Source of the DNA: Streptomyces lonarensis
Lineage (GTDB): Bacteria; Actinomycetota; Actinomycetes; Streptomycetales; Streptomycetaceae
Reading direction: 5' to 3'
Assembly (NCBI RefSeq): GCF_012033735.1
Contig: NZ_JAAVJD010000025.1
Location: 1 to 38,689 of the forward strand
DNA length: 38,689 nucleotides
The position numbers and the translations under genes are program-made. The notes under the pieces are model-generated. The model was not told the DNA's origin. It worked only from the letters and a program-made list of their open reading frames with translations, and ran no database searches. Positions 1,876-16,894 of the stretch are shown here, one piece after another. Positions within the stretch are counted from its first letter, which is position 1. The number at the start of each line of letters is the position of its first letter.

Positions 1876-2202
1876 GGTTGCTCCTCTCGCTGTGCCGCGG
1901 CCGTGCGCCGCCCGGCCGGCCGCCCCGCCGTCGGGGGAGCGGCGTGCCGTCGAGGAAGAAGAGGCGGCAACCGGGGGCGGCACTCCGCCACCACCCCTGT
2001 GATGTTCGTCACATGAATGATCAGGGGGTTGCCCCGGATAGCGGAGCGCCTCCCGCCCCTCTCTATTCCATGAGTGCCGGGCCCGCGGTGTGCGGGGACG
2101 AACCGGCAAGCGGCCGCAGGTCGAGGAGTTGATGCAGGTGCCCGGGGAGTGCACGCGAGAGGGCCCCCGCCCGCGCCCCGCGCCCGGAGCGGCGGTGCCG
2201 CG
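1876..2202. promoter_or_regulatory. Divergent promoter region between ACP-ligase and paa operons
   Basis: This 327-base stretch separates two divergent operons and has no plausible gene. It is less G+C-rich around 1995-2070, where promoters are expected, and contains the CRP-like palindrome listed separately. I could not assign -35/-10 elements with confidence. Confidence 0.6.
1998..2013. promoter_or_regulatory. CRP/FNR-type palindromic operator
   Basis: The sequence TGTGATGTTCGTCACA is a perfect TGTGA-N6-TCACA dyad. This is the classical CRP consensus, and actinobacterial Crp proteins recognise GTG-N6-CAC. It lies 123 bases upstream of the ACP start and 190 bases upstream of paaA, so it could act on either promoter. 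Binding is inferred. Confidence 0.65.
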
Positions 2203-3279
2203 ATGAGCGCCACGGCCCCCACCGGTCCCCGCGCGGCCGATGCCCCCGCGGACGGCGGTGCACCGCAGGAGGCGGAGCGGGCGGCGGAGTTCGAGGCGCT
2301 GGTCGCGGCGGGCGAGAGCGTCGAACCGCGCGACTGGATGCCGGACGGCTACCGCCGGATGCTCATCCGTCAGATCGCCCAGCACGCCCACTCGGAGATC
2401 ATCGGGATGCAGCCCGAGGGCGGCTGGCTCACCCGCGCCCCCTCCCTGCACCGCAAGTCCGTGCTGATCGCCAAGGTGCAGGACGAGGCCGGCCACGGCC
2501 TGTACCTGTACTCCGCCGCCGAGACCCTCGGCGTCGACCGCGCGGACCTGCTCGACGCACTGCACCGGGGCCAGCAGCGCTACGCCGCGACCTTCAACCA
2601 CCCGGCGCTCACCTGGGCTGACACCGGCGCCATCGCCTGGCTCACCGACGGAGCCGCGGTCACCAACCAGGCACCGCTCTGCCGGACCTCCTACGGCCCC
2701 TACGCCCGCGCCATGCGCCGGATCTGCCAGGAGGAGGCCTTCCACGTCCGGCTGGGGTTCGACATGCTGCTCGCGCTGTGCGAGGGCACCCCGGAACAGC
2801 GCGCGATGGCGCAGGACGCCGTCGACCGCTGGTGGCTCCCGGCCGTGGCCCTCATGTTCGGCCCGCCCGACACCGAGACCGCCGGGACCCGCGAGCCCGC
2901 GGCGGCGCTCGGCGCCGCCGTCTCCCGCCGCGCCATCGCCTGGGGCATCAAGCACCACACCAACGACGAACTCCGGCAGCGCTTCGTCGACCACGTCGTC
3001 CCGCAGGCGGAACAGCTCGGACTCACCCTCCCCGACCCCGGCATCCGCTGGAACGACGAACGCGGCCACTACGACTTCGGGCCGATCGACTGGGAGGTCT
3101 ACCGCGGCTCGCTGGAGGAGGACTCCCACACCGCGCGGCGCCGGATCGCGCACCGCGTCGCCGCCCACCGCGACGGCGCCTGGGTGCGCGAGGCGGCCGC
3201 CGCGTACGCCGAACGGCCCACCGCGCCGGACGCCGCGCCGGACCGGACCACCGCCGGGGAAGGAAAGCCGACCGGATGA
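2203..3279 (+). CDS. paaA: Phenylacetyl-CoA 1,2-epoxidase catalytic subunit PaaA-like
   Basis: A 358-residue diiron oxygenase alpha subunit of the phenylacetyl-CoA epoxidase complex, which converts an aryl-acetyl thioester to its ring 1,2-epoxide. Ferritin-like iron ligands appear as ExxH pairs at E95/H98 ([20 protein letters not shown]) and E178/H181 (ICQEEAFH). Long stretches match remembered E. coli PaaA, for example DWMPD.YR, IRQI.QHAHSEI and [12 protein letters not shown]. The ATG at 2203 was chosen over an upstream in-frame ATG at 2074 because PaaA similarity begins after it. The stop overlaps paaB by 4 bases. The true substrate may not be phenylacetyl-CoA, since no phenylacetate-CoA ligase or downstream catabolic gene is nearby. 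Confidence 0.93.
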
Positions 3280-3578
3280 GCCAGGACCAGCAGACCACGA
3301 CCACCTCGTGGGAGGTGTTCCTGCGCCCGCGCCGCGGCCTCGCCCACCAGCACGTCGGGTCGGTGCGCGCCACCGACCCCGACATGGCGCTCGCGCACGC
3401 CCGCGACCTCTACACCCGGCGCGGCGACCCGCTGTCGCTGTGGGTGGTCCGCTCCGACGGGGTCCACGCCGCCTCCCCGGCGGAGCGCGACCCCTTCTTC
3501 AGCAATGCGCGGCACAAGCCCTACCGCTACCCGGAGCACTTCGCGCCCCTCACCCGGGGGGAGCAGGACGATGCGTGA
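3276..3578 (+). CDS. paaB: Phenylacetyl-CoA epoxidase subunit PaaB-like
   Basis: A 100-residue PaaB-family protein. In the known complex PaaB is the small non-catalytic subunit that bridges PaaAC heterodimers. Typical features are [20 protein letters not shown] near the N-terminus, [13 protein letters not shown] in the middle and the FF..AR.K.YR.PE motif near the end. The start codon overlaps the paaA stop (ATGA) and the end overlaps paaC by 8 bases, so the subunits are translationally coupled. Confidence 0.92.
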
Positions 3579-4380
3579 CCCCGCCACCACCGCCCGCCCG
3601 GCGGCCCCCGGCGCCCGCGGCACCGCCCCCGGTGACGCGCTCGCCCGCCACGTCCGCCGGCTCGGCGACGACGCCCTGATCCTCGGCCAGCGCCTGTGCG
3701 AGACCGTGACCCGCGCTCCGACGATCGAGGAGGACCTGGCACTGTCCAACATCGCGCTGGACCTGATCGGCCACGCCCGCGTCCTGCTCACCCGCAGCGG
3801 ACAGCTCGACGGCAGCGGCCGCTCCGAGGACGACCTCGCGTTCCGGCGCACCGAGCGGGAGTTCGAGAACGTGCTGCTGGTGGAGCTGGAGCGCGGCGAC
3901 TTCGCCGTCACGATCGCGCGCCAACTGGTCTTCAGCCACTACGCCGTCCTCCACTACACGGCGCTCGCCGACGCCGCGGACCCGGAACTCGCGGCGTTCG
4001 GCACCCGTGCCGCCCGGGAGAGCGCCTACCACCGCCACCACGCCGACCGCTGGACCGAGCGCCTGGGGCGGGGAACCGCGGAGAGCCACCGCCGGATGCA
4101 GGCCGCGGTCGACCGAGTCTGGCCGTACACGGCGGAGCTGTTCGAGGAGGACGAGCTCTCCCGCACCCTGGTCGCGACCGGCGCCGTACCGTCCGTCGCC
4201 GCCCTCCACGACGACTGGGCGGCAGCGGTCACCGCCGTCCTCGATCGCGCCGGACTGACGGTGCCCGCCCTCGGCCCGCAGCCCCGCGGGGGCCGGGACG
4301 GGCTGCACACCGAGGACTTCGCCCCGCTGCTCGCCGAACTCCAGTCCGTGCACCGGCAGTACCCTGGAGGCAGCTGGTGA
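3571..4380 (+). CDS. paaC: Phenylacetyl-CoA epoxidase structural subunit PaaC-like
   Basis: A 269-residue ferritin-fold protein of the PaaC family, which pairs with PaaA but binds no iron. Recognisable blocks include LGDDALILGQRLCETVTRAP, EEDLALSNIALDLIGHAR and the DLAFRRTEREFENVLLVEL segment. The N-terminus carries about 20 extra low-complexity Ala/Pro/Gly residues compared with the E. coli protein; the ATG at 3571 gives the expected overlap with paaB. The stop overlaps the GTG start of paaD by 4 bases. Confidence 0.92.
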   Translation: MRDPATTARPAAPGARGTAPGDALARHVRRLGDDALILGQRLCETVTRAPTIEEDLALSNIALDLIGHARVLLTRSGQLDGSGRSEDDLAFRRTEREFENVLLVELERGDFAVTIARQLVFSHYAVLHYTALADAADPELAAFGTRAARESAYHRHHADRWTERLGRGTAESHRRMQAAVDRVWPYTAELFEEDELSRTLVATGAVPSVAALHDDWAAAVTAVLDRAGLTVPALGPQPRGGRDGLHTEDFAPLLAELQSVHRQYPGGSW

Positions 4381-4910
4381 CGCCGCGACAGGAGCCCGCG
4401 TACACGGCACCGCCGCCCGGCCCCGACGCGCCCCTGCCCGCGGAGGAGGTCGCGGCCCGGATCGGCGCGCTGCCCGACCCCGAACTGCCGATGATCACCC
4501 TCGCCGACCTCGGCGTGCTCCACTCCGTCGGCATCACCGACGACGGCCGCCTCGACGTCGCCCTCCTCCCCACCTTCCTCGGCTGCCCCGGACTGGAGTC
4601 GATGGCTGCCTCGGCCCGCGCGGTGCTCGCCGAGTGCGGCCACCCCGACGGCCGGGTCCGGCAGGTGCTCGCACCGGCCTGGACCACCGACCGCATCACC
4701 GAGGCAGGCCGTGCCAAGCTCGCCGCCCACGGCATCGCCCCGCCCGGCCCGGCGGGCGACGGGCCCGTCCCCGTGGAGCTGACCGCCGCCTGCACCCACT
4801 GCGGCTCCGCCGCGACGCGGCCCCACAGCCCCTTCGGCCCGTCCCGGTGCCAGGCGGTGCAGTGGTGCACCTCCTGCCGCGAGACCTTCCCCGCCATGAC
4901 GGTGATCTGA
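4377..4910 (+). CDS. paaD: PaaD-like Fe-S assembly/maturation protein
   Basis: A 177-residue protein with an N-terminal MIP18/DUF59 domain (about residues 20-125, including LPDPELPMITLADLGVLHSV and FLGCPG) and a C-terminal cysteine cluster with C139-x2-C142 and C164-x2-C167. PaaD is needed for in vivo function of the epoxidase and is thought to help mature the metal centres. The GTG start overlaps the paaC stop, and the gene sits in the usual position between paaC and paaE. Confidence 0.92.
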   Translation: MTPRQEPAYTAPPPGPDAPLPAEEVAARIGALPDPELPMITLADLGVLHSVGITDDGRLDVALLPTFLGCPGLESMAASARAVLAECGHPDGRVRQVLAPAWTTDRITEAGRAKLAAHGIAPPGPAGDGPVPVELTAACTHCGSAATRPHSPFGPSRCQAVQWCTSCRETFPAMTVI

Positions 4911-4919
4911 GGTGACGTC

Positions 4920-6044
4920 ATGACCACCCACCGCCCCGCGTCCCCCACGCCCCCGGCCGAGCCCCCCGTCGCACCGCCCCGCGGCTGGCACCGCCTCGCC
5001 GTCGCGGAGGTCGACCGGCTGACCGCGGACACCACCGCCGTCACCCTCCGGGTACCGCCGGAACTGCGCCCCGTCTTCGCCCACCGGCCCGGACAGCACC
5101 TCGTCGTCCGGCACCGCCAGGAGGGCCGGGAGCTGCGCCGCAGCTACTCGCTCTGCCCGCCGCCCACCGACCCTGCCGGCCTCCGGCTGGTGGTCAAGCG
5201 CAACACCCCCGACGGCTTCGGCGCCCATGCCGCCACCCGGCTGGCCAGTGGGGACACGCTCGAACTGTCGCCCCCCACCGGCAACTTCGGCCTCCCGGCA
5301 GCACCGGCCGACCACCACGTGCTGATCGCCGGCGGCTGCGGCGTCACCCCGCTCGCCCCCATGGCAGCCGCCGCGCTGCGGGAGGACCCCGGCTGCCGGG
5401 TCTCCCTGGTCCACGCCGTGCGCACCGCCGGGGACGCGCTGCTCGCCGACGAACTCGCCGAGCTGAAGGACGCGCACGTCGACCGGTTCACCACCGTCCA
5501 CGTCCTCTCCCGGGAGCAACAGGGCAGCGACCTGCTCACCGGACGCCTCGACCCTGCCAGATTGAGCCGCGTCCTGGACCTGCTGGAGGCCCGGCCGGGG
5601 GAGGGGACCACCTACTCGCTGTGCGGCCCCCACGGACTGGTGGCCACGGCGCGGACGCTGCTCGCCGAGCGGGGTGTGCCCGCGGACGCCGTCCGCTGGG
5701 AGCTGTTCTCCGCCGACGGGCTGCCCGGCGACCCCGAGCCCGCCGACCGGGCCCCCGCGGACGGGGAGCGCCGCATCACCGCGGTGCTCGCCGGCCGCAC
5801 CAGCCGCACGGTGATGGGCCCGGAGGACCGCGTCGCCCTCGACGCGGTGCTGCGGGTGCGACCCGAAGTGCCCTACTCCTGCCGCGAAGGGGTCTGCGGC
5901 AACTGCCGCGCCAAGGTCGTGCGGGGGGCCGTCGCCCTTGCCCCGCAGCACGCCCTGGACCCGCGCGACCGCGCCGCCGGCTACACCCTGGCCTGCCGCG
6001 CCCGGCCCCGCACCGACGACCTCACCCTCGACTTCGACGCCTGA
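4920..6044 (+). CDS. paaE: Phenylacetyl-CoA epoxidase reductase PaaE-like
   Basis: A 374-residue NAD(P)H-dependent flavoprotein reductase that feeds electrons to the diiron centre of PaaA. Domain order is an FAD-binding barrel with RSYS at residues 74-77, an NAD(P)-binding domain with GGCGVTPLAPM near 138 and SLCGPHGLV near 233, and a C-terminal plant-type [2Fe-2S] ferredoxin with C321, C326, C329 and C359. All cofactor motifs are intact. The gene follows paaD by 9 bases, completing a full paaABCDE set. Confidence 0.92.
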   Translation: MTTHRPASPTPPAEPPVAPPRGWHRLAVAEVDRLTADTTAVTLRVPPELRPVFAHRPGQHLVVRHRQEGRELRRSYSLCPPPTDPAGLRLVVKRNTPDGFGAHAATRLASGDTLELSPPTGNFGLPAAPADHHVLIAGGCGVTPLAPMAAAALREDPGCRVSLVHAVRTAGDALLADELAELKDAHVDRFTTVHVLSREQQGSDLLTGRLDPARLSRVLDLLEARPGEGTTYSLCGPHGLVATARTLLAERGVPADAVRWELFSADGLPGDPEPADRAPADGERRITAVLAGRTSRTVMGPEDRVALDAVLRVRPEVPYSCREGVCGNCRAKVVRGAVALAPQHALDPRDRAAGYTLACRARPRTDDLTLDFDA

Positions 6045-6938: not shown

Positions 6939-7787
6939 ATGAACAACGGCACGTCCCGCCTGGCGGACCCGGGCGTGGACTCCACCCTCACCCGGCCCTT
7001 CACCGGGCCCAGCCCCTACGACGACTACGTCCGCGCCTCCGTCCTCAACTCGTTGCAGCATCCGCTCACCGAGGCCGCGGACGAGATGGGCTTCCTGGTC
7101 ACGACGCAGGTCATGGAGTTGTGGTTCACGCTCGTCGCCCACGAGTGGCGCGCCGCGCGGGACGCACTGGCGCAGGACGACCTCGACGCCGCCGGCGACG
7201 CACTGGTCCGCAGCCGCCGGGCGCTCACCGCGCTGGTCGCCTCCTGGGCACCGATCGCCGCGCTGACGCCGGCGCAGTTCAACGGCTTCCGGGCGGCGTT
7301 CGGCCGTGCCTCCGGCTTCCAGTCGGCCATGTACCGGCATCTGGAGTTCCTGCTCGGCGACAAGTCGGAGTCCATGCTCCGCTCCCACCAGGGCGACCCG
7401 GCCGTCCACGCGGAGCTGCGGCAGGCGTACCGGGAACCGTCGCTGTACGACGAGGTCCTGCTCTACCTGCACCGGCACGGGTTCGAGGTGCCCGAGCGCG
7501 TGCGGGAGCGGGACGTCACCGCCCCGTACACCTCCGACCCCGGCGTGGTGGAGGCCTGGCGGCAGATCTACGCCGGGCCGCAGCACCACCCGCTGCTGGT
7601 CCTCGCCGAACGGCTGACCGACATCGCCGAACTCGTCGGCCGCTGGCGGGAGGACCACCTGCGCGTCGTGCGCCGCGCCATGGGGACACGGCCCGGCAGC
7701 GGTGGGTCGGCCGGTCTGGCCTGGCTGGAGGGCCGCGCCGCCCGCCCGGTCTTCCCCGAGCTGTGGGAGGTCCGGGGTGTCGTCTGA
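6939..7787 (+). CDS. Tryptophan 2,3-dioxygenase-like haem protein
   Basis: A 282-residue TDO-superfamily protein; family members open the indole ring of tryptophan to N-formylkynurenine with haem and O2. Matching motifs are the FR...ASGFQSAMYRHLEFLLG block (R118 is the equivalent of the carboxylate-binding Arg), the proximal haem ligand H240 in WREDHLRVVRR, and a GSGGSAG loop near the C-terminus. The distal-pocket segment reads FLVTTQVMELWF where canonical bacterial TDOs have His before Gln (QHQ), so the distal His is Thr here. The loop Thr of GTGGS is Ser. Altered chemistry is therefore possible. The start has TGGAG upstream. The gene overlaps the next one by 11 bases. Confidence 0.85.
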   Translation: MNNGTSRLADPGVDSTLTRPFTGPSPYDDYVRASVLNSLQHPLTEAADEMGFLVTTQVMELWFTLVAHEWRAARDALAQDDLDAAGDALVRSRRALTALVASWAPIAALTPAQFNGFRAAFGRASGFQSAMYRHLEFLLGDKSESMLRSHQGDPAVHAELRQAYREPSLYDEVLLYLHRHGFEVPERVRERDVTAPYTSDPGVVEAWRQIYAGPQHHPLLVLAERLTDIAELVGRWREDHLRVVRRAMGTRPGSGGSAGLAWLEGRAARPVFPELWEVRGVV

Positions 7788-8631
7788 CCGCATCTCCGCC
7801 TTCGCGGCCGAGGAGGAACGCCGCGTGCTGAGCCTGCGCCCGGTCCTCGCGCCCCGTCACGGCTCCTACGGCGACCATCCGCACCAGGTCTACGACGCCT
7901 GGCCCGCCGAGGACCCCGACGCGCCGCTGGTGATCCTGCTGCACGGCGGCTACTGGCGCTACGACCGGATGCACCTCACCCCGTTCGCCGCGTACCTGGC
8001 GGCCCAGGGCTTCCACACGCTGCTGCCGGGGTTCCGACGCTCGGGAGGAGCCGGCGGGTACCCCGAGACCTTCGACGACGTCGCCCTGCTGGTGGACACG
8101 CTGCCCGCGGGCAGGCCGTACGTGCTGGCGGGCCACTGCTCGGGCGGCCACCTGGCGCTCTGGTGCGCCGCCCGGGCGCTGCTGCCGCCGGGGTCGCGCT
8201 GGCACACCGAGGCGCTGCCCGACAGCGTCCTCGCCCTGGCGCCGCTCACCGATCTGGCCGCCACCCGGCGCGACCGCCTCAGCGACGACGCCGCGCTGCA
8301 ACTGCTCGGCGGCGAGGAGAACTTCGCCGAGCGTCTCCCGCCGGTCGACCCGGTGACCCTGCTGCGCCTGTCCGGCACCACCGGGGTCCGCACCGTGCTG
8401 CTGCACGGCGAGGTCGACGAGGAGGTCCCGCTCAGCCAGTTCGGCGACTACGCCGCCGTCCACCGCGACCTGGAGACGGTGGTCCTGCCGGGTACCGGCC
8501 ACTACACGCTGATCGAGCCGGGCGCGCCCGCAGCTGCGGCGGTCGCCGGGACGCTGCGCGCCCTCTCCGCCGGCCACCCGCTGCCCGCACCCGCGGCGCT
8601 CCTCGCCCCGGCCCCCGCCGCCGGCGACTGA
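7777..8631 (+). CDS. Kynurenine-formamidase-like alpha/beta hydrolase with Cys nucleophile
   Basis: A 284-residue alpha/beta hydrolase. The HGGYW oxyanion motif (56-60) and the elbow AGHCSGGHLAL are those of the animal/fungal-type kynurenine formamidase group, which hydrolyses N-formylkynurenine. The elbow is normally GHSAG; here the third position is Cys (C121, codon TGC). D214 and H242 (GTGHYTLIE) complete a plausible Cys-Asp-His triad. The GTG start at 7777 was chosen for its GGGAGG Shine-Dalgarno and its 11-base overlap with the TDO gene, which couples the two. Pairing with TDO supports action on a formylated ring-opened product. Confidence 0.8.
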   Translation: MSSDRISAFAAEEERRVLSLRPVLAPRHGSYGDHPHQVYDAWPAEDPDAPLVILLHGGYWRYDRMHLTPFAAYLAAQGFHTLLPGFRRSGGAGGYPETFDDVALLVDTLPAGRPYVLAGHCSGGHLALWCAARALLPPGSRWHTEALPDSVLALAPLTDLAATRRDRLSDDAALQLLGGEENFAERLPPVDPVTLLRLSGTTGVRTVLLHGEVDEEVPLSQFGDYAAVHRDLETVVLPGTGHYTLIEPGAPAAAAVAGTLRALSAGHPLPAPAALLAPAPAAGD

Positions 8632-8769: not shown

Positions 8770-10005
8770 ATGAGTCGGATCTACGCCTTCCTGCGCCGCC
8801 ATCCCGCCCCGGCGGACGCGGGGTGGAGTCTGCCGGTCGTCGGACTGAGCCTGCTGCTGGTGTTCGGCTACGACAGCCCCTACTACCCCGGCGGGCCGGT
8901 GTGGGCGGGCGTTCTCGTCACAGCCACCGCGTGGGCCGCCGTCACCCTGCGCCGCACCGCGCCAGGCCCCGCGATGTGGCTGACGGTCGCCACGGTGGTG
9001 CTGCACGTCCTGGGGGCGGTCCTCCTCCTGCCGACCGCGCTGCTCCTCCTGGTGGTCGTCGGCACCGCGGCCGCCGGCCCGCTGCGCTGGGCCTCCCGGA
9101 CCGCGCTGGCCCTCGTCCTGGCGGGGCCCTGGCTGCACGGCTCCCGCTGGCTGGCCGAGGGGGACCCGGCCAGCTTCGTGGTCGAGGCGTGCCTGCTGAC
9201 CCCGGTGACCCTCATCCCGTGGGTCCTCGGCGACGCGGCGCGGACCCGCCGCGCGTACTTCGCCGCGTTGGAGGAGCGGGCCGCCCGGCTGGAGCGCGAG
9301 CAGGAACTGGAGGCCCGGGTGGCGGTGGCCGCCGAGCGGACCCGTATCGCCCGCGAGCTGCACGACGTCGTCGCCCACAGCGTCTCGGTCATGGTCGTCC
9401 AGGCCGACGGGGCGCTCTACACCATCCCCGACCACCCGGACCGGACGCGGGAGGCGGTCCGGGCGGTCAGCAGCACCGGCCGTCAGGCGCTGTCGGAGAT
9501 GCGGCAGCTGGTGGGCGTGCTCCGCGACACGGCGGGGGAGGGGACGGCGGGCGACCCGGCCGCCGCGTCGCAACCCGGACCGGAGCAGGTGGCGACCCTG
9601 GTGGACGAGGTGCGTGCCGCCGGACTGGAGGTCGACTGGAGGCTGGAGGGCGAGCCCCGCGCCCTCCCGGACGGCGTGGCGCTCACCGTCTACCGGATCG
9701 TGCAGGAGGCGCTCACCAACACCCGCAAGCACGCCGGGCCGGGGGCCACCGCCCGCGTGATGCTCCGTTACACCGACACGGCCGTGGAACTCGTCGCGGA
9801 GGACGACGGACGCGGGCCCGCCGTGCGGGGCGTCGGACGGCGGGCCGACGGCGGCGGCAACGGCCTGGTCGGGATGCGCGAGCGGGTGGCGCTGGTCGAA
9901 GGCACCGTCTCGTCGGGGCCGCGGCCCGGCGGCGGGTACCGGGTCGCCGCGGTCCTGCCCGCCCCGGTGCGCCTGCCCGAGCGGGACGGGCGCGACGACG
10001 GCTGA
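8770..10005 (+). CDS. Orphan sensor histidine kinase (NarL/HisKA_3 type)
   Basis: A 411-residue membrane sensor kinase. Roughly five hydrophobic segments occupy residues 20-155, followed by a coiled region and the HisKA_3 box ERTRIARELHDVVAHSVSVM with phospho-acceptor H198. A HATPase domain includes the N-box EALTNTRKHA, DDGRG and GLVGMRERV. An in-frame GTG at 8692 would add 26 residues; the ATG at 8770 is preferred because the membrane domain starts soon after. No response regulator gene adjoins it, which is unusual for this class. The 138-base gap from the hydrolase leaves co-transcription open. Confidence 0.85.
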   Translation: MSRIYAFLRRHPAPADAGWSLPVVGLSLLLVFGYDSPYYPGGPVWAGVLVTATAWAAVTLRRTAPGPAMWLTVATVVLHVLGAVLLLPTALLLLVVVGTAAAGPLRWASRTALALVLAGPWLHGSRWLAEGDPASFVVEACLLTPVTLIPWVLGDAARTRRAYFAALEERAARLEREQELEARVAVAAERTRIARELHDVVAHSVSVMVVQADGALYTIPDHPDRTREAVRAVSSTGRQALSEMRQLVGVLRDTAGEGTAGDPAAASQPGPEQVATLVDEVRAAGLEVDWRLEGEPRALPDGVALTVYRIVQEALTNTRKHAGPGATARVMLRYTDTAVELVAEDDGRGPAVRGVGRRADGGGNGLVGMRERVALVEGTVSSGPRPGGGYRVAAVLPAPVRLPERDGRDDG

Positions 10006-10024
10006 GGGCACGGACCCGGGGTCT

Positions 10025-10067
10025 CTGCCCGGCGGCCCCTCGACGCCTCGGCGGCGCCACCGGGCAG
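10025..10067 (+). terminator. Hairpin terminator after the histidine kinase
   Basis: Arms CTGCCCGGCGGC and GCCACCGGGCAG (11 of 12 paired) begin 20 bases after the kinase stop. There is no U-tract, as is common in high-G+C genomes. Confidence 0.5.
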
Positions 10068-10437
10068 GCTTGCGGGACGGGGCCGCTGTCGGCGCCCTCG
10101 CCGGGCCCGGACCGGCAGCCGGGTGCCGTTCGGCGACAACGGCCCTCGCGCGGCTCGGCTGCGGCTGCCGGTCCCGTCGACCGAGGCGCCGGCCCGGTGG
10201 ACGCGCCGCCGTGGGATGCGGCGGGCCGGGGCCACCGGTACTCCGGCGGAGTGCGGTCGGTGGGCGGCTCAGCGCATGGGGGAGACCCGGCGTCGCCGGT
10301 TGGCTCGCGCCATCGGATGCGGTCAGCTGCACCGCCGAGGGGCGCTCTCGCACCGGGTTGCACGCGGGCGTTCCCGGTGACTCGGCAGATGGCCGCATCC
10401 GATGTCGCGGGCCCGGTGCGGGGCCTCCCACCCGCTC
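10068..10437. other. Non-coding gap between convergent HK and LysR genes
   Basis: This 370-base gap holds no reading frame with actinomycete-like third-position G+C and start signals. No response regulator that could pair with the upstream kinase is present. I see no other feature in it. Confidence 0.5.
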
Positions 10438-11151
10438 TCAGCCCTCCGCTGCCGCGGCCAGCGGCGGTCGGGCGAGCCCGCGGGCGAGCGCCACCAGCCG
10501 GTCGACCTCGGCCGGGCTCGCCCACTCCGGCCAGCTCAGCCTCAGCCGGTGGACCACGGGTGCGCCGCCCTCTTCCGGCGCCGCACGGAGTGTCACGTCC
10601 GCGGTGCCCAGGCCCCGCGGGTCCGGGCCGTTGTCCGCGGGGCGCACTCCGAGCACCGCCCCGCCCTCGCGCAGTGCGCGCAGGTGCTCCTCGCGTGTGT
10701 GCCGGACGACTCGCACCCCGGCGCGGAACAACTGCTCCCCGGCCAGGGCGCCGAGCCCCGCGACGAACGCCTCCGGGGCGCTGTCCCCGTGCGGCACGTG
10801 GCTCAGCACCAACGGCGAACGGCTGCCGGCGCGGCGCCGGGTTGCGTCGGTGGTCTCGTCCAGCGCCCGGACCGCTGCCCGCGACCCCCGCAGGAACTCG
10901 CGGCCGGCCGGCGTCAGCCAGACGGCGCGGTTGGTGCGGAGCAGCAACGGGGTGGCGAGGTCCTTCTCCAGGCGGGCGATCTGCTGGCTCAGCGCGGGCT
11001 GACTGATGTGCAGCCGCTGGGCCGCGCGCCCGAAGTGCAGTTCCTCGGCGAGGCAGATGAAGGACCGCAGGCGGCTGAGGCCGAGGTCGGCGGGCCGGCG
11101 CTCCGCGGCGCGGTCGGGTGTTCCCTCTCGTACCGTGTCGGTGATCGACAT
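10438..11151 (-). CDS. LysR-family regulator with short effector domain
   Basis: A 237-residue LysR-type transcription factor. The N-terminal winged HTH is clear (LSRLRSFICLAEELHFGRAAQ, then HISQPALSQQIARLEKDL, to about residue 90). The C-terminal part is only about 145 residues, against about 200 for a usual periplasmic-binding-like effector domain, and lacks a clear second half. The ATG at 11151 was chosen because the HTH follows closely; upstream in-frame sequence is low-complexity. It faces region A and lies before the gap to region B, so it could control either. The shortened effector domain suggests altered ligand sensing. Confidence 0.82.
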   Translation of the reverse strand: MSITDTVREGTPDRAAERRPADLGLSRLRSFICLAEELHFGRAAQRLHISQPALSQQIARLEKDLATPLLLRTNRAVWLTPAGREFLRGSRAAVRALDETTDATRRRAGSRSPLVLSHVPHGDSAPEAFVAGLGALAGEQLFRAGVRVVRHTREEHLRALREGGAVLGVRPADNGPDPRGLGTADVTLRAAPEEGGAPVVHRLRLSWPEWASPAEVDRLVALARGLARPPLAAAAEG

Positions 11152-12246: not shown

Positions 12247-12543
12247 ATGGATGCGCCCGAGCTCGATTCCTATATACGCCGGAAATTCGCGGAGCACGCG
12301 GAGGTACCCGAGGACGAACTCTTCCAGAGCGGCGTCACGCTGGCGGACGTGGTCGGCCGGAGCCCGCGCATGACCAACAGCATCGACCTCATGGAGTCGT
12401 TCGCCCGGACCGCGAATTCCCTCCGCAAGGACCACGGCATACGGGTCCGCCTGCCCGCGCTCCCCCTGGACACGCCGCTGACGGAGGTCGTCGCGCTCTT
12501 CCTCGCGGAATGCGAGCGGCAGCAGCCGGGGGCGGTCGCATGA
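12247..12543 (+). CDS. Second stand-alone acyl carrier protein
   Basis: A 98-residue acidic protein with an ACP-like layout. The candidate phosphopantetheine Ser is S45 in RMTNSIDLMESF, followed by RKDHGIRVRLPALPLDTPLTEVVALFL, which matches ACP helices II-IV. The usual Asp before Ser is Asn. The N-terminal half is longer than in FAS ACPs. It opens region B and overlaps the desaturase-like gene by 4 bases (ATGA). A holo-ACP synthase and a fatty-acyl-AMP ligase in the same operon support a carrier role. It resembles dedicated ACPs of lipid-modifying clusters rather than the housekeeping AcpP. Confidence 0.75.
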   Translation: MDAPELDSYIRRKFAEHAEVPEDELFQSGVTLADVVGRSPRMTNSIDLMESFARTANSLRKDHGIRVRLPALPLDTPLTEVVALFLAECERQQPGAVA

Positions 12544-13478
12544 GCACCGTCACCCCGGGCACCGGCACCCGCGGCGCCCGCCCCACCGCGTCGCAGCCCG
12601 CGATCATCACCGACCTCTGGGACGCGCTGACCGACCGGGGCATGTCCCTGGTCGACGTCACCTGGGAGCAGCACCGCCTGCACGAGTCCCGCCGGTGGAG
12701 CGTCATGGAGATGCTCGCGGCGGTCGACATCGACAGCCTCACCCCGCGCGACCGGATCCTCGTCTGGAACGCCGGCCGGGCGGAGTTGACCACCAAGCCG
12801 GGCGCCGACCGCCTCGAACGCCAGGCGGAGGCCGAGACCCGCCGCTGGGGACCGACCGACCCGTCGGTGGCCGCGGTGATGGAGGCGTGCGGCACGTGGA
12901 GCCGCTACTGGAACGAGGAGGAGGCGCACCACGAGACCGTCTTCATCCGCCTCGCCCAGTCGGCCGGGATGGAGCCCATCTCGGACGAGACCTTCATCCA
13001 GTTCCGCCAGGTCTTCCCCGACGACGACATGCTGCGCACGCTCGTGCTGCTGGCGATCTCCGAGATCACCGCCGCCGTCAACTACGGGCAGTGCCAGCAC
13101 GTGGTGGAGGACGCCGGCCTGCGCCGGATCTTCAAGCAGGTCGCCGCCGACGAGATCCAGCACCGCAACTACTTCGTCTCGTTCGCGAAGGCGCTGGTCG
13201 ACAGCGGTGCCTACCACCGCAAGGACGCCTTCGCCGTGGCGCATCTGTTCCTCCGCGAGGACGGCGAACTCCAGGGCAGCGCGCGGGAGCAGCGGGAGAG
13301 CCGCGGCACCCACGTCAACTGGTGGGACCACCTGGAGACCAGCGGCAGCGACTTCCGGCCCGAGGCGATCGAGAAGAAGGAACAGCTGATCTGCGGCGCC
13401 CTCAAGAAGATCACCGGCATCGCGGTCGGCTCCCGCGAAGAGGTCGAGGACACGTGGATGGACCTGCTGGACAGCTGA
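12540..13478 (+). CDS. Type 2 (soluble) acyl-ACP desaturase-like diiron protein
   Basis: A 312-residue ferritin-like protein of the stearoyl-ACP desaturase superfamily, whose members use a diiron centre and O2 to oxidise an acyl chain bound to ACP. Ligand motifs align with the plant enzyme: a candidate first Glu at E82, E128/H131 in YWNEEEAHHE (EENRH in plants), E175 in AISEITAAVNYGQC, and E205/H208 in AADEIQHRN (DEKRH in plants). All expected ligands are present. The N-terminal 25 residues are flexible. Its place directly after an ACP gene suggests that this ACP delivers the substrate. Desaturation, acetylenation or hydroxylation are all possible outcomes; electron donors are not encoded nearby. 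Confidence 0.83.
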   Translation: MSTVTPGTGTRGARPTASQPAIITDLWDALTDRGMSLVDVTWEQHRLHESRRWSVMEMLAAVDIDSLTPRDRILVWNAGRAELTTKPGADRLERQAEAETRRWGPTDPSVAAVMEACGTWSRYWNEEEAHHETVFIRLAQSAGMEPISDETFIQFRQVFPDDDMLRTLVLLAISEITAAVNYGQCQHVVEDAGLRRIFKQVAADEIQHRNYFVSFAKALVDSGAYHRKDAFAVAHLFLREDGELQGSAREQRESRGTHVNWWDHLETSGSDFRPEAIEKKEQLICGALKKITGIAVGSREEVEDTWMDLLDS

Positions 13479-13930
13479 TCGCCGTCGGCCACGACCTCCA
13501 GGCAGTCGCCCCGCTGCGCACCGCTGTCGCCCTGCGCAGCCCCGGCGTCTTCTTCACCGCGGCCGAACTCGCGCGGTTCGCGTCGGCGGTCGTACCCCTG
13601 CAGAGCACCGCCGCCGGGTTCGCCGCCAAGGAGGCGTTGTTCAAGGCGCTGCCGCCCGCGCCCGAGCCCTGGTTCTGGACCGATGCCGAACTCGCGCACG
13701 ACCGTCACGGCGCGCCCCGGTTCCGCGCCCGGGGTGCGCTGGCGCGTCACCTCGGCCGCCGGGGCCTGCGCGTCGCCGTCTCGCTCTCCCACAGCGGTGA
13801 CTACGTCTCGGCGGTGGTCGTGGTCTCCGCCGTGCGGACCGTGAACCGGACCCACCCCACCAGGACAGGACGGACCGCTCCCCGTGTACTCCGACGAATC
13901 GCAGCTCGACCTGCCGGTCCGCCCCGGTGA
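13454..13930 (+). CDS. Holo-ACP synthase (AcpS-type phosphopantetheinyl transferase)
   Basis: A roughly 158-residue AcpS-family protein that transfers 4'-phosphopantetheine from CoA to an ACP Ser. Visible motifs are AVGHDLQAV with Mg-binding D14, FFTAAELARF, FAAKEALFKALP with E60, and VSLSHSGDYVSAVVV. The GTG at 13454 lies inside the end of the desaturase gene (25-base overlap). The C-terminal 30 residues after the family's normal end overlap the thioesterase gene. A dedicated AcpS in the operon implies that the adjacent ACP, perhaps with its unusual NSI motif, is not served well by the general enzyme (inference). Confidence 0.82.
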   Translation: MDGPAGQLIAVGHDLQAVAPLRTAVALRSPGVFFTAAELARFASAVVPLQSTAAGFAAKEALFKALPPAPEPWFWTDAELAHDRHGAPRFRARGALARHLGRRGLRVAVSLSHSGDYVSAVVVVSAVRTVNRTHPTRTGRTAPRVLRRIAARPAGPPR

Positions 13931-14315
13931 CCTGGACGCCCTGGGCCACGTCAACCACGCCGTGGCCCTCGCCTACCTGGAGGCGGGGCGGCGGCACTGG
14001 CTGGAGAGCCGGGCCCCGGTCAGCAGCACCGAGGCGGTCGCCGTGGTCTCCCGGGCCGAGGTGGACTACCGGGCGGAGCTCCCCTACGGACCGCTGACCG
14101 TCCGCACCCTGCTGACCTCGCCCTCGGCCGCGGACCTCGCCGCCGGCGACATCACCTACCGTGCCGTCTTCCGGCAGCGCATCGTCCCCGGGCGCGCGAC
14201 CGCCCCCGCCGTCGAGGCCCTGATCACCGTGGCGTTCCTCGACACCCGGCTGCGCCACCTGATCCCGCTGCACGCGTACCTGGCGGCGGTGCACCCCGCG
14301 CAGGAACGGCCCTGA
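13884..14315 (+). CDS. Hotdog-fold acyl thioesterase (4HBT family)
   Basis: A 143-residue single-hotdog protein of the 4-hydroxybenzoyl-CoA thioesterase family. The N-terminal VRPGDLDALGHVNHAVALAYLEAGR contains the catalytic Asp/GHVNH signature, followed by the VDYRAELPYG segment. It would hydrolyse an acyl-ACP or acyl-CoA thioester. The GTG start at 13884 overlaps the end of the AcpS gene by 47 bases. In mycobacterial and Streptomyces isonitrile-lipopeptide clusters a hotdog thioesterase also accompanies an acyl-AMP ligase and an ACP, so releasing or editing the carrier-bound acyl group is a reasonable role. Confidence 0.82.
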   Translation: MYSDESQLDLPVRPGDLDALGHVNHAVALAYLEAGRRHWLESRAPVSSTEAVAVVSRAEVDYRAELPYGPLTVRTLLTSPSAADLAAGDITYRAVFRQRIVPGRATAPAVEALITVAFLDTRLRHLIPLHAYLAAVHPAQERP

Positions 14316-14344
14316 CCGCCGCCGGTTCCGGAGAAGGAGAGCCC

Positions 14345-15259
14345 ATGAGCACCGCCGCCGAAGCGGAGCGCACCCCGCACAGGGTGCCGACGTCCGACGG
14401 ACACCAACTCCACCTCGAACGCGTCGCCCCGCCGACGGCGTCCGACGGAGCTCCCGGCGTCCTGCTCCTCCCGGGGCTCTTCTCCGACGAGAGGTTCTTC
14501 CTCGGCCCCGACGGCCGCGGCCCCGCCGCCGCTCTCCTCGCCGAGGGCCACGTCTGCTACCTCGCGTCCCTGCGGGGCCACCGGCCCGGCGGCCCCGGCC
14601 CCGGCCGCTCGGCCGATTGGAACTTCGACACCTACGTCCGCCACGACGTGCCCGACCTCCTCCGCGCGGCCGGCCGGCTGCACAGCGGCCCGCTGTTCCT
14701 CCTCGCGCACAGCATGGCCGGGTACGCCGCGCTGGCCGCCCTGGCCGTCGACCCGGAGCTGCAACGACGGCTCACCGGCGTCGTGACCGTCTCCTCCGCG
14801 GTCAACGACCACAGCGACGGTGGCCTCGCCAAACGCGTTCAGCTGACCTTCGCCGCCGTGGTCTCACGGCTGCTCGGGAGGTTCCCGGCCCGGGCGCTCC
14901 GCCAGGGCCGCCACGACGAACCAGCCGGACTGATGCGGCAGTTCGCCGACTGGGCGCCGCAGGGCGCCTTCCGCAGCGCCGACGGCCGCACCGACTACTG
15001 GAGCGAACTCGCGGCGGTCACCCTCCCGGTGCTGGTCGCGGTCGGAGCCGCCGACACCTTCCACGCCTCGCCCGCCCGCGCCCGCAAGCTCGCCGACCAC
15101 CTGGGGGAGAAGGCGGAACTCTCCGTCCTCGGCCGGCTCTCCGGGCTCAGCTGGGACCCCGGCCATGTGGACGTGGTGCGCGGCCCCCGCGCCGAGTCCG
15201 AGGTGCTGCCCCGGCTGACGGCGTGGATGCGCGACGCCGCCGCCCGCGGCGGGGAGTGA
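14345..15259 (+). CDS. Alpha/beta hydrolase
   Basis: A 304-residue alpha/beta-hydrolase-fold protein. Key segments are LLLPGLFSDERFF (oxyanion strand), the elbow LLAHSMAGYAAL with nucleophile S123, a helical cap around 160-200, PVLVAVGAADTFH with the acid residue, and DPGHVDVV with the catalytic His. The elbow is AHSMA instead of the usual GHSMG. The start at 14345 has a strong AAGGAG. The substrate is unknown; it could be a lipase/esterase, a second thioesterase or an acyltransferase for the product. No signal peptide, so cytoplasmic. Confidence 0.75.
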   Translation: MSTAAEAERTPHRVPTSDGHQLHLERVAPPTASDGAPGVLLLPGLFSDERFFLGPDGRGPAAALLAEGHVCYLASLRGHRPGGPGPGRSADWNFDTYVRHDVPDLLRAAGRLHSGPLFLLAHSMAGYAALAALAVDPELQRRLTGVVTVSSAVNDHSDGGLAKRVQLTFAAVVSRLLGRFPARALRQGRHDEPAGLMRQFADWAPQGAFRSADGRTDYWSELAAVTLPVLVAVGAADTFHASPARARKLADHLGEKAELSVLGRLSGLSWDPGHVDVVRGPRAESEVLPRLTAWMRDAAARGGE

Positions 15260-15265
15260 GGGGCC

Positions 15266-16894
15266 GTGGTCCTCGACGCCATCACCGACGCCCACCGCCG
15301 CCCGCCCGGGAGGGGCCTCCACTTCTACGAAACGTTCGACGGCACCCCGCACTCCCTGGACCACCGCGAGCTGCCCGAGCGGATCGCCGGCCACGCGGCC
15401 TTCTTTCTCGACCACGGGGTGAGGCCGGGCGCCCGCGTCCTCCTGCCGTTCGAGACGTCGGTGGGGACGATCGTCTCCTTCCTCGCCCTCATCGAGATCG
15501 GTGCCGTGCCGCTCTCGGTCCGACCGTTCGTGCTGAGCACCCCGCGCCAGGCCTACCAGGACTTCCTCGGCCGCGTCGCCGCCGAGTACCGGGCGACGCA
15601 CGTCCTGCACGTCCCCGGCCTCGCCCCCGTCGACCTGCCGGTCCCCGCGCTGCCGCTGCCCCCACCGGACGCCCGCACACCCGGCGGTCGGCTGCGCGCA
15701 CCCCACGACGGCGAGATCGCGTTCGTCCAGTTCTCCTCCGGCTCGACCGCGTTCCCCAAGGGGATACCCGTGCGGCACGGACCGCTGCGGGCCAACCTCG
15801 CGATGATCACCCGCACCGACGGCCGCCGACCCGACGACCGGGTCAGCAGCTGGCTCCCGCTCTACCACGACATGGGCCTCGTCGGAGGGTTGCTGTCCTG
15901 CCTCGCCGTCGGCTGCGACCTGCTGCTCGCGGACCCCGCCACCTTCCTCTTCGACGCACGCGGCTGGTGGGAGCACATGGCCCGGGAGCGAGTCATGGGC
16001 ACCGTGATCCCCAACTTCGCCGTCGACTACTCGCTCCGGCTCATGGGCGCGATGGAGCCGGAGGAGTGCGCCGCCCTCGACCTCTCCGCCGTCCGCGCCG
16101 TCTACCTCGGCAGTGAACCCGTCAACCTGACCCACCTGCGGGCCTTCACCACGCTGCTGGCCCCCGCCGGGCTGCGACCGGACGCCTTCATGCCCTGCTA
16201 CGGCATGGCCGAGGCTGTGCTGCTGGTCTCCGCCCGGCCGCCCGGCGCGGGCATCCGCACGGTCGCCTCCCCCTCCGGCGTCGAGGCCCTCTCCGTCGGG
16301 CGGCCCATGCCCGAGTTCACCGTGCGCGTCCGCGACGAGGCGGGCGTGGTGTGCGGCGAGAACGAACTCGGCGAGATCGAGATCGCCGGCGGCAGTCTGG
16401 CCGACCACTACTTCGACCGCGAGGCCCCTCTGGCCTCGCCCGACGGCTTCTACGCCACCGGTGACATCGGCTTTCTCGATGACGGTGAACTCTTCGTCAC
16501 CGGCCGCGCCGGCGACCGGATCAAGGTGAACGGACGGAGCCTCTTCGCCGTCGACTTCGAACAGGAAGTGGAACGCCTGCCCTTCGTCCGGTCCGGCCGC
16601 TCGGTCGTCGCGCAGCGCAACGGGCGCGTCCTCGTCCTGCTGGAGGCGGACCGCACGGCGCGCACCGACCCGGAGGGCGCCCGCGACCGCGTCGTCACCC
16701 AGCTGGTCCGGACGCTCGGAGTCGCCGTGCAGGTCGGGGACGTCCACCTGCTGCGCCCCGGTCAGCTGCCCCGGACCAGCAGCGGCAAGCTGCGGCGCCG
16801 CGACGCCGTCGAGGCCCACCTCCGGGGGGAGCCGGCTGCCGCCGCCCCGACCGCTGCCGCCGGGCCCGAGAACTCCGGCGGGGCGGTCCGATGA
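15266..16894 (+). CDS. Fatty-acyl-AMP ligase (FAAL-like)
   Basis: A 542-residue adenylate-forming enzyme that would activate a fatty acid as acyl-AMP and load it onto the dedicated ACP. It looks like a FAAL rather than a CoA ligase by FVQFSSGSTAFPKG (153-165), SWLPLYHDMGLVGG, the PCYGMAEAVLLVS motif and the TGDIGFLDDGELFVTGRAGDRIKVNGR segment. The C-terminal SSGKLRRR supplies the catalytic Lys. The Pro/Ala-rich tail after residue 525 is probably disordered. The GTG at 15266 follows the hydrolase by 6 bases. It is the last clear lipid gene of region B and gives the pathway its entry step. Confidence 0.87.
   Translation: MVLDAITDAHRRPPGRGLHFYETFDGTPHSLDHRELPERIAGHAAFFLDHGVRPGARVLLPFETSVGTIVSFLALIEIGAVPLSVRPFVLSTPRQAYQDFLGRVAAEYRATHVLHVPGLAPVDLPVPALPLPPPDARTPGGRLRAPHDGEIAFVQFSSGSTAFPKGIPVRHGPLRANLAMITRTDGRRPDDRVSSWLPLYHDMGLVGGLLSCLAVGCDLLLADPATFLFDARGWWEHMARERVMGTVIPNFAVDYSLRLMGAMEPEECAALDLSAVRAVYLGSEPVNLTHLRAFTTLLAPAGLRPDAFMPCYGMAEAVLLVSARPPGAGIRTVASPSGVEALSVGRPMPEFTVRVRDEAGVVCGENELGEIEIAGGSLADHYFDREAPLASPDGFYATGDIGFLDDGELFVTGRAGDRIKVNGRSLFAVDFEQEVERLPFVRSGRSVVAQRNGRVLVLLEADRTARTDPEGARDRVVTQLVRTLGVAVQVGDVHLLRPGQLPRTSSGKLRRRDAVEAHLRGEPAAAAPTAAAGPENSGGAVR

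Follow-up and report, generated by a model that had tools for sequence, protein, structure and literature searches.

A recurrent bacterial gene cassette with a soluble diiron protein and a predicted role in carrier-bound fatty-acid editing

The soluble dimetal halogenase CylC works beside a fatty acyl-AMP ligase (FAAL) and an acyl carrier protein (ACP) (sections of PMC8406957), and polyyne gene clusters already group a FAAL and a carrier with desaturases and a thioesterase (sections of PMC8406139). The ferritin-like acyl-ACP oxygenase BioE, with four Glu and two His residues, cuts acyl-ACP at C7-C8 (sections of PMC12915131). Here we describe a cassette of six same-strand, nose-to-tail genes at positions 12247-16894 of a 38,689-nucleotide stretch of Streptomyces lonarensis DNA, the whole of which we call the window. 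The genes encode a small putative carrier, a ferritin-like diiron protein (DII), an AcpS-type phosphopantetheinyl transferase, a hotdog thioesterase (TE), an alpha/beta hydrolase (ABH), and a FAAL-like ligase. An earlier interpretation of the same DNA, made from its letters alone and called here the sequence-only reading, had named each of these genes, and all sit where, and on the strand on which, it had placed them; it had also set a line with a soluble diiron enzyme apart from the FAAL and ACP systems known to it, and for such a line the systems above are precedents. We think it probable that the six genes form a line for carrier-bound fatty-acid editing, in which a free fatty acid would be loaded by the ligase, oxidized by DII, and released by TE.

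Relatives were sought with DII alone, by scanning one genome per species (84,980 species) for two peptide words of the protein. This gave 36 loci from Actinomycetota, Myxococcota, and Cyanobacteriota, several of them near-copies, and because two words were used the set leans to closer relatives. With the window proteins as tblastn queries, a carrier was found at 34 of the 36 loci, AcpS at 31, TE at 34, and the ligase at 34; all four stood beside DII at 28. Such clustering is beyond chance, and it bears out the earlier proposal of a distinct, recurring line. That proposal had also counted AcpS and ABH as members; both are present in the window, but AcpS was not found at 5 of the 36 loci and ABH was found at only 17 (6 in Actinomycetota and 11 in Myxococcota), so neither is essential to the cassette type. 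Two loci look broken, L030 (a stop inside DII, a short ligase, carrier not found) and L034 (carrier not found, a ligase match of 218 amino acids), and two are cut short, L013 (contig edge inside TE, with ABH and ligase out of view) and L038 (contig end inside the ligase). L027 has the carrier and DII only. At L040 the ligase stands in front of the cassette.

Before residue conservation in AcpS, TE, ABH, and the ligase and the distances between parts were computed, L030 and L034 were set aside, together with proteins that were truncated or contained a stop. Pairwise distances of the cassette parts correlate at r 0.88-0.97, a value that common descent would raise by itself. Of 174 neighbor clusters the 40 largest were considered; those spanning phyla were the cassette genes, putative overlapping frames of these genes, and a loose acyl-CoA-dehydrogenase family of ~25% identity. 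In the window the carrier and DII genes overlap by ATGA, and AcpS overlaps DII by 25 nt and the start of TE by 47 nt; the DII/AcpS overlap is 25 nt at 21 of 31 loci, 7 nt at 9, and 22 nt at 1, an agreement that is partly by construction because the script chose starts near the window's own. A protein search with DII returned 364 clusters. In the DII tree the actinobacterial proteins form one group and the cyanobacterial proteins another, the Myxococcota proteins do not form a single group, and the Xenorhabdus protein lies on a long branch.

All metal ligands that the sequence-only reading had assigned to DII are present and conserved. Of 70 aligned relatives, all keep E82, E128, H131, and E175, and 69 keep E205 and H208; a diiron center is predicted from these residues. 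The exception is L040, from a metagenome-assembled genome, where the last metal-binding helix of DII (9902-10762) falls in an in-frame gap that may be a real loss or an assembly fault. The ligand spacing is 46, 47, and 30 residues. Against PF03405, DII scores 20.9 bits, below the Pfam cut-off of 22.7, and the profile matches 66 of the 70 relatives at E <= 0.01 (best, 2e-6). Desaturases of the IPR005804 type are membrane enzymes, and no match of DII to a membrane desaturase family was found in Pfam. When the predicted DII model (predicted local distance difference test, 91.4) was submitted to Foldseek, the first 13 matches were all acyl-ACP desaturases (E 2e-3 to 2e-2); in a second fold look, acyl-ACP desaturases, R2lox, and VlmB were tied. 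A CylC-type structure was absent from the PDB fold listing for DII, which is no evidence against one. In a profile alignment of DII with the desaturase DesA2, the EExxH and DExxH motifs are in register. Three residues after the helix-6 Glu, where we take castor desaturase to carry Thr199, the DII relatives have Ala (Ala178; 70 of 70). DesA2 has Gly at the aligned place, so Thr is not universal in the desaturase family. Two further proteins, P0328 and P0329, belong to a third DII lineage and have Thr where Ala178 stands; a seeming DII-AcpS gene fusion, P0330, was not used since its middle looks frame-shifted.

The nature of the DII reaction is also touched by a partner gene. Five actinobacterial loci (L008 and L012-L015) have a crotonase-like gene within the cassette or next to it, and ABH was found at none of them; the L013 contig ends before the ABH position, so the ABH status of that locus cannot be judged. 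The crotonase-like gene replaces ABH in some loci, and at the 11 cyanobacterial loci neither gene was found. Judging in part from residue roles that we presume to apply, its product may be isomerase-like, and its presence at five loci fits an unsaturated thioester. Because of this partner and of the DII fold, desaturation to a C=C bond is our leading guess for the reaction, and we give it about an even chance. The same line could also run with a different diiron step (hydroxylation, a BioE-like oxidative C-C cleavage, or a CylC-like halogenation), which we regard as somewhat unlikely. Such chemistry would suit the invariant Ala at the Thr199-equivalent place and the tie of R2lox and VlmB with desaturases in fold, and it has precedents in BioE, which is ferritin-like and cleaves acyl-ACP (sections of PMC12915131), and in CylC, which operates beside FAAL and ACP (sections of PMC8406957). 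It is harder to square with the ligand spacing, which differs from that of BioE, with the desaturases that fill the first Foldseek rows, and with the crotonase-like partner, which suits a C=C bond; the Gly of DesA2 also lessens the force of the missing Thr.

The window carrier has no match in Pfam or in NCBIfam (the latter run on this one protein of the family), the PP-binding profile matches 0 of 52 family members at E <= 1, and the family has no significant match among PDB sequences. Because Pfam and NCBIfam gave no match, the word "carrier" in the sequence-only reading was a motif call. Ser45 is invariant in 52 of 52 sequences, and the predicted model has a helix (45-63) that begins with it. 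Of the titled matches to the fold of this model, nearly all are carriers, with weak scores, and UniRef names one relative, P0193, "Carrier domain-containing protein." From the model we predict that the small protein is a carrier with Ser45 as its attachment site. AcpS, predicted to be the enzyme arming it, scores 31.2 bits against PF01648 (cut-off, 25) and is one of six PF01648 matches in the window genome; D14, E60, and K64, which we take to be catalytic, are invariant in 28 sequences. TE scores 37.5 bits against 4HBT_2 (cut-off, 25.5), with D18 and GHVN invariant in 32 sequences, and ABH scores 41.2 bits against Hydrolase_4 (cut-off, 27), with S123, D237, and H274 invariant in 18.

The identification of the last gene as a fatty-acyl-AMP ligase held in part. 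The protein scores 154.8 bits against AMP-binding (cut-off, 29.9), its closest PDB matches are FAALs (top, 3PBK [EcFAAL], E 5e-55), and its adenylation motifs do not vary among 31 ligases. Its top NCBIfam model is one for fatty acyl-AMP ligases (268.8 bits), followed by one named for CoA ligases (258.2 bits); the FAAL model is also best for the L042 ligase and the CoA-ligase-named model for those of L016 and L028, all of these scores being below cut-off. The FAAL-specific insertion, however, is absent. The segment from YGMAE to GRP has 28 residues in the window ligase, 18 fewer than in 3PBK, and 27-28 in the 32 cassette ligases with a printed segment, a count made partly by eye, as the script gave no match or a later match for many rows. 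As a control, the second ligase in a divergent operon beside the cassette at L006 has a longer segment, likewise judged by eye. A stretch of EcFAAL around T252-R258, named in sections of PMC8460268, aligns without gaps with the window ligase. According to the same sections, other CoA-rejecting elements outweigh the insertion, so the formation of an acyl-carrier by an insertion-free ligase is still plausible.

It is improbable, in our estimate, that the ligase makes acyl-CoA and that the small protein is a structural or regulatory partner and not a phosphopantetheine carrier. The missing insertion would then be expected, as would the CoA-ligase-named best model at L016 and L028, the lack of Pfam and significant PDB-sequence matches in the carrier family, and the weak fold scores. 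An invariant Ser45 at a predicted helix start, fold matches titled almost throughout as carriers, the UniRef name of P0193, AcpS at 31 of 36 loci, and the gap-free T252-R258 stretch all argue against this reading. We class neither DII with the acyl-ACP desaturases nor the ligase with the canonical FAALs, because the oxidase scores with another family, the carrier is nonstandard, the cassette has its own AcpS, and the ligase is insertion-free. The sequence-only reading had itself named a housekeeping acyl-ACP desaturase as a case that would refute its proposal. That DII is such an enzyme, serving membrane lipids and standing here by accident, can be ruled out with very little doubt: this view could appeal to the weak PF03405 similarity and to database labels of "acyl-ACP desaturase" on some relatives, but a separate canonical PF03405 protein (239.8 bits versus 20.9 for DII) is encoded elsewhere in the window genome, the cassette is rare (below), and its partners travel with DII.

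A second DII lineage was first met in 80 other genomes of the genus (taken as Streptomyces), as one protein of 36% identity whose locus has the order of the window: carrier (NSIDLLDAF), DII, AcpS, TE, and ligase. In a survey of 392 same-genus genomes, whose first look scored at most five candidates per genome, seven were positive for either lineage: two for the first, counting the window's own genome, and five for the second. All five second-lineage loci keep the five genes in order, with DII 34-37% identical. A protein search with the second lineage returned 103 clusters, Labilithrix and Kofleriaceae included. Among 72,556 plasmid records, the cassette was present in three, two from Nostoc and one from Xenorhabdus. 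The plasmids of Nostoc C057 and Nostoc ATCC 53789 are typed conjugative, and in both an integrase gene precedes the cassette at a distance of a few genes; the Xenorhabdus TH1 plasmid is typed nonmobilizable and has no annotated AcpS. Two conserved hypothetical genes precede the Nostoc cassette at L032 (6345-7519), L043 (5530-8064), and L044 (5921-8109), the integrase being annotated in L043 and L044; these upstream genes and the integrase hint at a mobile unit. In samples of the order and of the phylum only the window's own genome was positive (1 of 119 in each), and 0 of 20 relatives had the cassette, which is thus rare and patchy.

The chain from AcpS to TE is the simplest scheme using every conserved part. 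AcpS would arm the carrier, and the FAAL-like ligase would load it, probably with a free fatty acid. DII would then oxidize the carrier-bound chain using O2 and host electrons; no electron donor is encoded among the six genes, and the electrons would have to come from a ferredoxin system of the host. TE would free the product, presumably as the free acid, and ABH or the crotonase-like protein may provide a finishing step that differs between lineages. The earlier claim that no polyketide synthase or nonribosomal peptide synthetase (PKS/NRPS) is needed agrees with the absence of such domains from the 29 selected neighbor proteins scanned; a long AMP-binding gene that lies ~9 kb from the cassette on the Xenorhabdus plasmid and a locus of the second lineage qualify it. 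At that locus (L068 17736-19900), ~7 kb from the cassette, there are another ligase-like gene (a weak tblastn match) and a gene whose start looks ketosynthase-like by eye.

A larger picture can be put forward tentatively, with more doubt than confidence. The cassette would be a mobile, self-arming editor with a private carrier lineage, an AcpS and an insertion-free ligase serving only that carrier, and a new Ala-bearing DII subfamily; it would be insulated from host fatty-acid synthesis, occur in at least four phyla as two deep lineages, and make an oxidized fatty acid used as a signal, a defense compound, or a starter unit. If our main reading is right, fatty-acid oxidation on a carrier by a soluble diiron enzyme would be a compact, transferable unit independent of a PKS/NRPS cluster, and a new class of acyl-carrier oxidase for biocatalysis would be possible. 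The size of the cassette (five genes) suits full reconstitution.

The cassette is easy to overlook because its carrier matches no Pfam model and its oxidase scores below the family cut-off. A published alkyne/polyyne screen requires IPR009081 carriers and IPR005804 desaturases (sections of PMC8406139), and the cassette falls outside it, DII being without a membrane-desaturase match in Pfam and the carrier family without a PP-binding match. The suggestion that mining rules may miss such a locus gains support from this, with the UniRef name of P0193 on the other side; if our reading is right, mining that demands standard carrier and desaturase domains has a blind spot here. In the open-access literature searched, we recognized no paper describing the cassette, and the words "diiron," "iron," and "ferritin" are absent from the main text of a FAAL review (PMC11837247).

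Features of the cassette and its surroundings are listed in Table 1.

Table 1. Coordinates of cassette genes, a nearby regulator, and the crotonase-like gene (window positions unless a locus is named)
Feature	Coordinates	Strand	Remarks
Small carrier protein, 98 aa	12247..12543	+	NS(I/V)DLME family; predicted phosphopantetheine site Ser45
DII, soluble ferritin-like diiron protein, 312 aa	12540..13478	+	Divergent from acyl-ACP desaturases
AcpS-type phosphopantetheinyl transferase	13454..13930	+	GTG start; PF01648 over cut-off
TE, hotdog (4HBT-type) thioesterase	13884..14315	+	4HBT_2 and 4HBT over cut-off
ABH, alpha/beta hydrolase, optional member	14345..15259	+	Hydrolase_4 over cut-off
FAAL-like acyl-adenylating ligase without FAAL-specific insertion	15266..16894	+	AMP-binding plus DIP2-like C-terminal domain
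Divergent LysR-type regulator	10438..11151	-	HTH_1; start picked by eye
Crotonase-like gene	L008 13403-14062; L012 13523-14185; L013 8755-9414; L014 2340-2999; L015 13125-13784

The LysR-type gene is a possible regulator of the cassette; homologues adjoin the cassette at L009 (62%) and L029 (74%), and L008 has a weak match of 62 amino acids. The window genome comprises 5.95 Mb in 482 contigs. Farther upstream than the LysR-type gene lie phenylacetate and tryptophan degradation genes, among them phenylacetyl-CoA epoxidase genes (PaaA, PaaC, and a PaaE-like reductase; 2074-6044) and a tryptophan 2,3-dioxygenase-like gene (below the NCBIfam cut-off) followed by an alpha/beta hydrolase (6939-8631), perhaps a kynurenine formamidase pair. 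A GH43 glycosidase gene lies downstream and accompanies the cassette at 0 of 36 loci. A scan for promoters and terminators was uninformative, with 0 promoter-like sites and 4 terminator-like sites versus 1.3 expected.

Two candidate general partners proved to be lineage-specific. A CoA-transferase family III gene stands upstream of the carrier at 12 myxobacterial loci (L016-L026 and L041), which make up 12 of the 14 Myxococcota-labelled loci and have a largely common neighborhood. A Streptomyces-type divergent operon adjoins the cassette at five loci (L006 3-7984, L007, L008, L010, and L012; compare L066 5154-14194). It encodes a FAAL with the insertion, a ThiS-like protein, an unknown protein of 278 amino acids, an acyl-CoA-dehydrogenase-like protein, a second and longer protein of that type (806 amino acids in L066), a standard ACP, and a major facilitator superfamily exporter, and it may take up the cassette product in a pathway to thio- or unsaturated fatty acids.

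Among described systems, the soluble acyl-ACP desaturases (castor, ivy, and DesA2) resemble DII in having their ligand motifs in register and in filling the first Foldseek rows; DII differs in its score below the Pfam cut-off, in the Ala replacing castor Thr199, and in belonging to a cassette, where the desaturases are lone genes. BioE of biotin synthesis is likewise a six-ligand diiron protein acting on acyl-ACP, but its ligand spacing is 27, 72, and 30, and no set of ligase, carrier, AcpS, and TE is described with it in the sections cited (PMC12915131). The AFC-BC11 cluster of Burkholderia has a FAAL (AfcA), a single carrier (AfcK), and the acyl-ACP-desaturase-like AfcN and AfcD, whereas its product is an N-acyl tetrapeptide, its genes are many more, and the word "thioesterase" is absent from the main text (PMC12186527). 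The CylA/CylB/CylC starter modules of cylindrocyclophane, columbamide, and chlorosphaerolactylate share with the cassette a FAAL, a carrier, and an enzyme of the dimetal-carboxylate kind that modifies the acyl chain; in the cited sections they lie in PKS/NRPS-type clusters and no AcpS-TE pair is mentioned, and DII and CylC are compared here by description (PMC8406957). The polyyne core of caryoynencin and protegencin (a JamABC-like set plus two desaturases, a TE, and a rubredoxin) shares FAAL, carrier, desaturation, and TE but uses IPR005804-type desaturases (three), an IPR009081 carrier, and a rubredoxin of its own (sections of PMC8406139). In its working the cassette would resemble the opening of CylABC-type pathways and the polyyne core, which are its nearest precedents. 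Beyond the sequence-only reading, the analysis adds that the carrier is invisible to Pfam but has a serine that never varies and a predicted fold like that of carriers, that the ligase is insertion-free, and that a crotonase-like gene takes the place of ABH at some loci.

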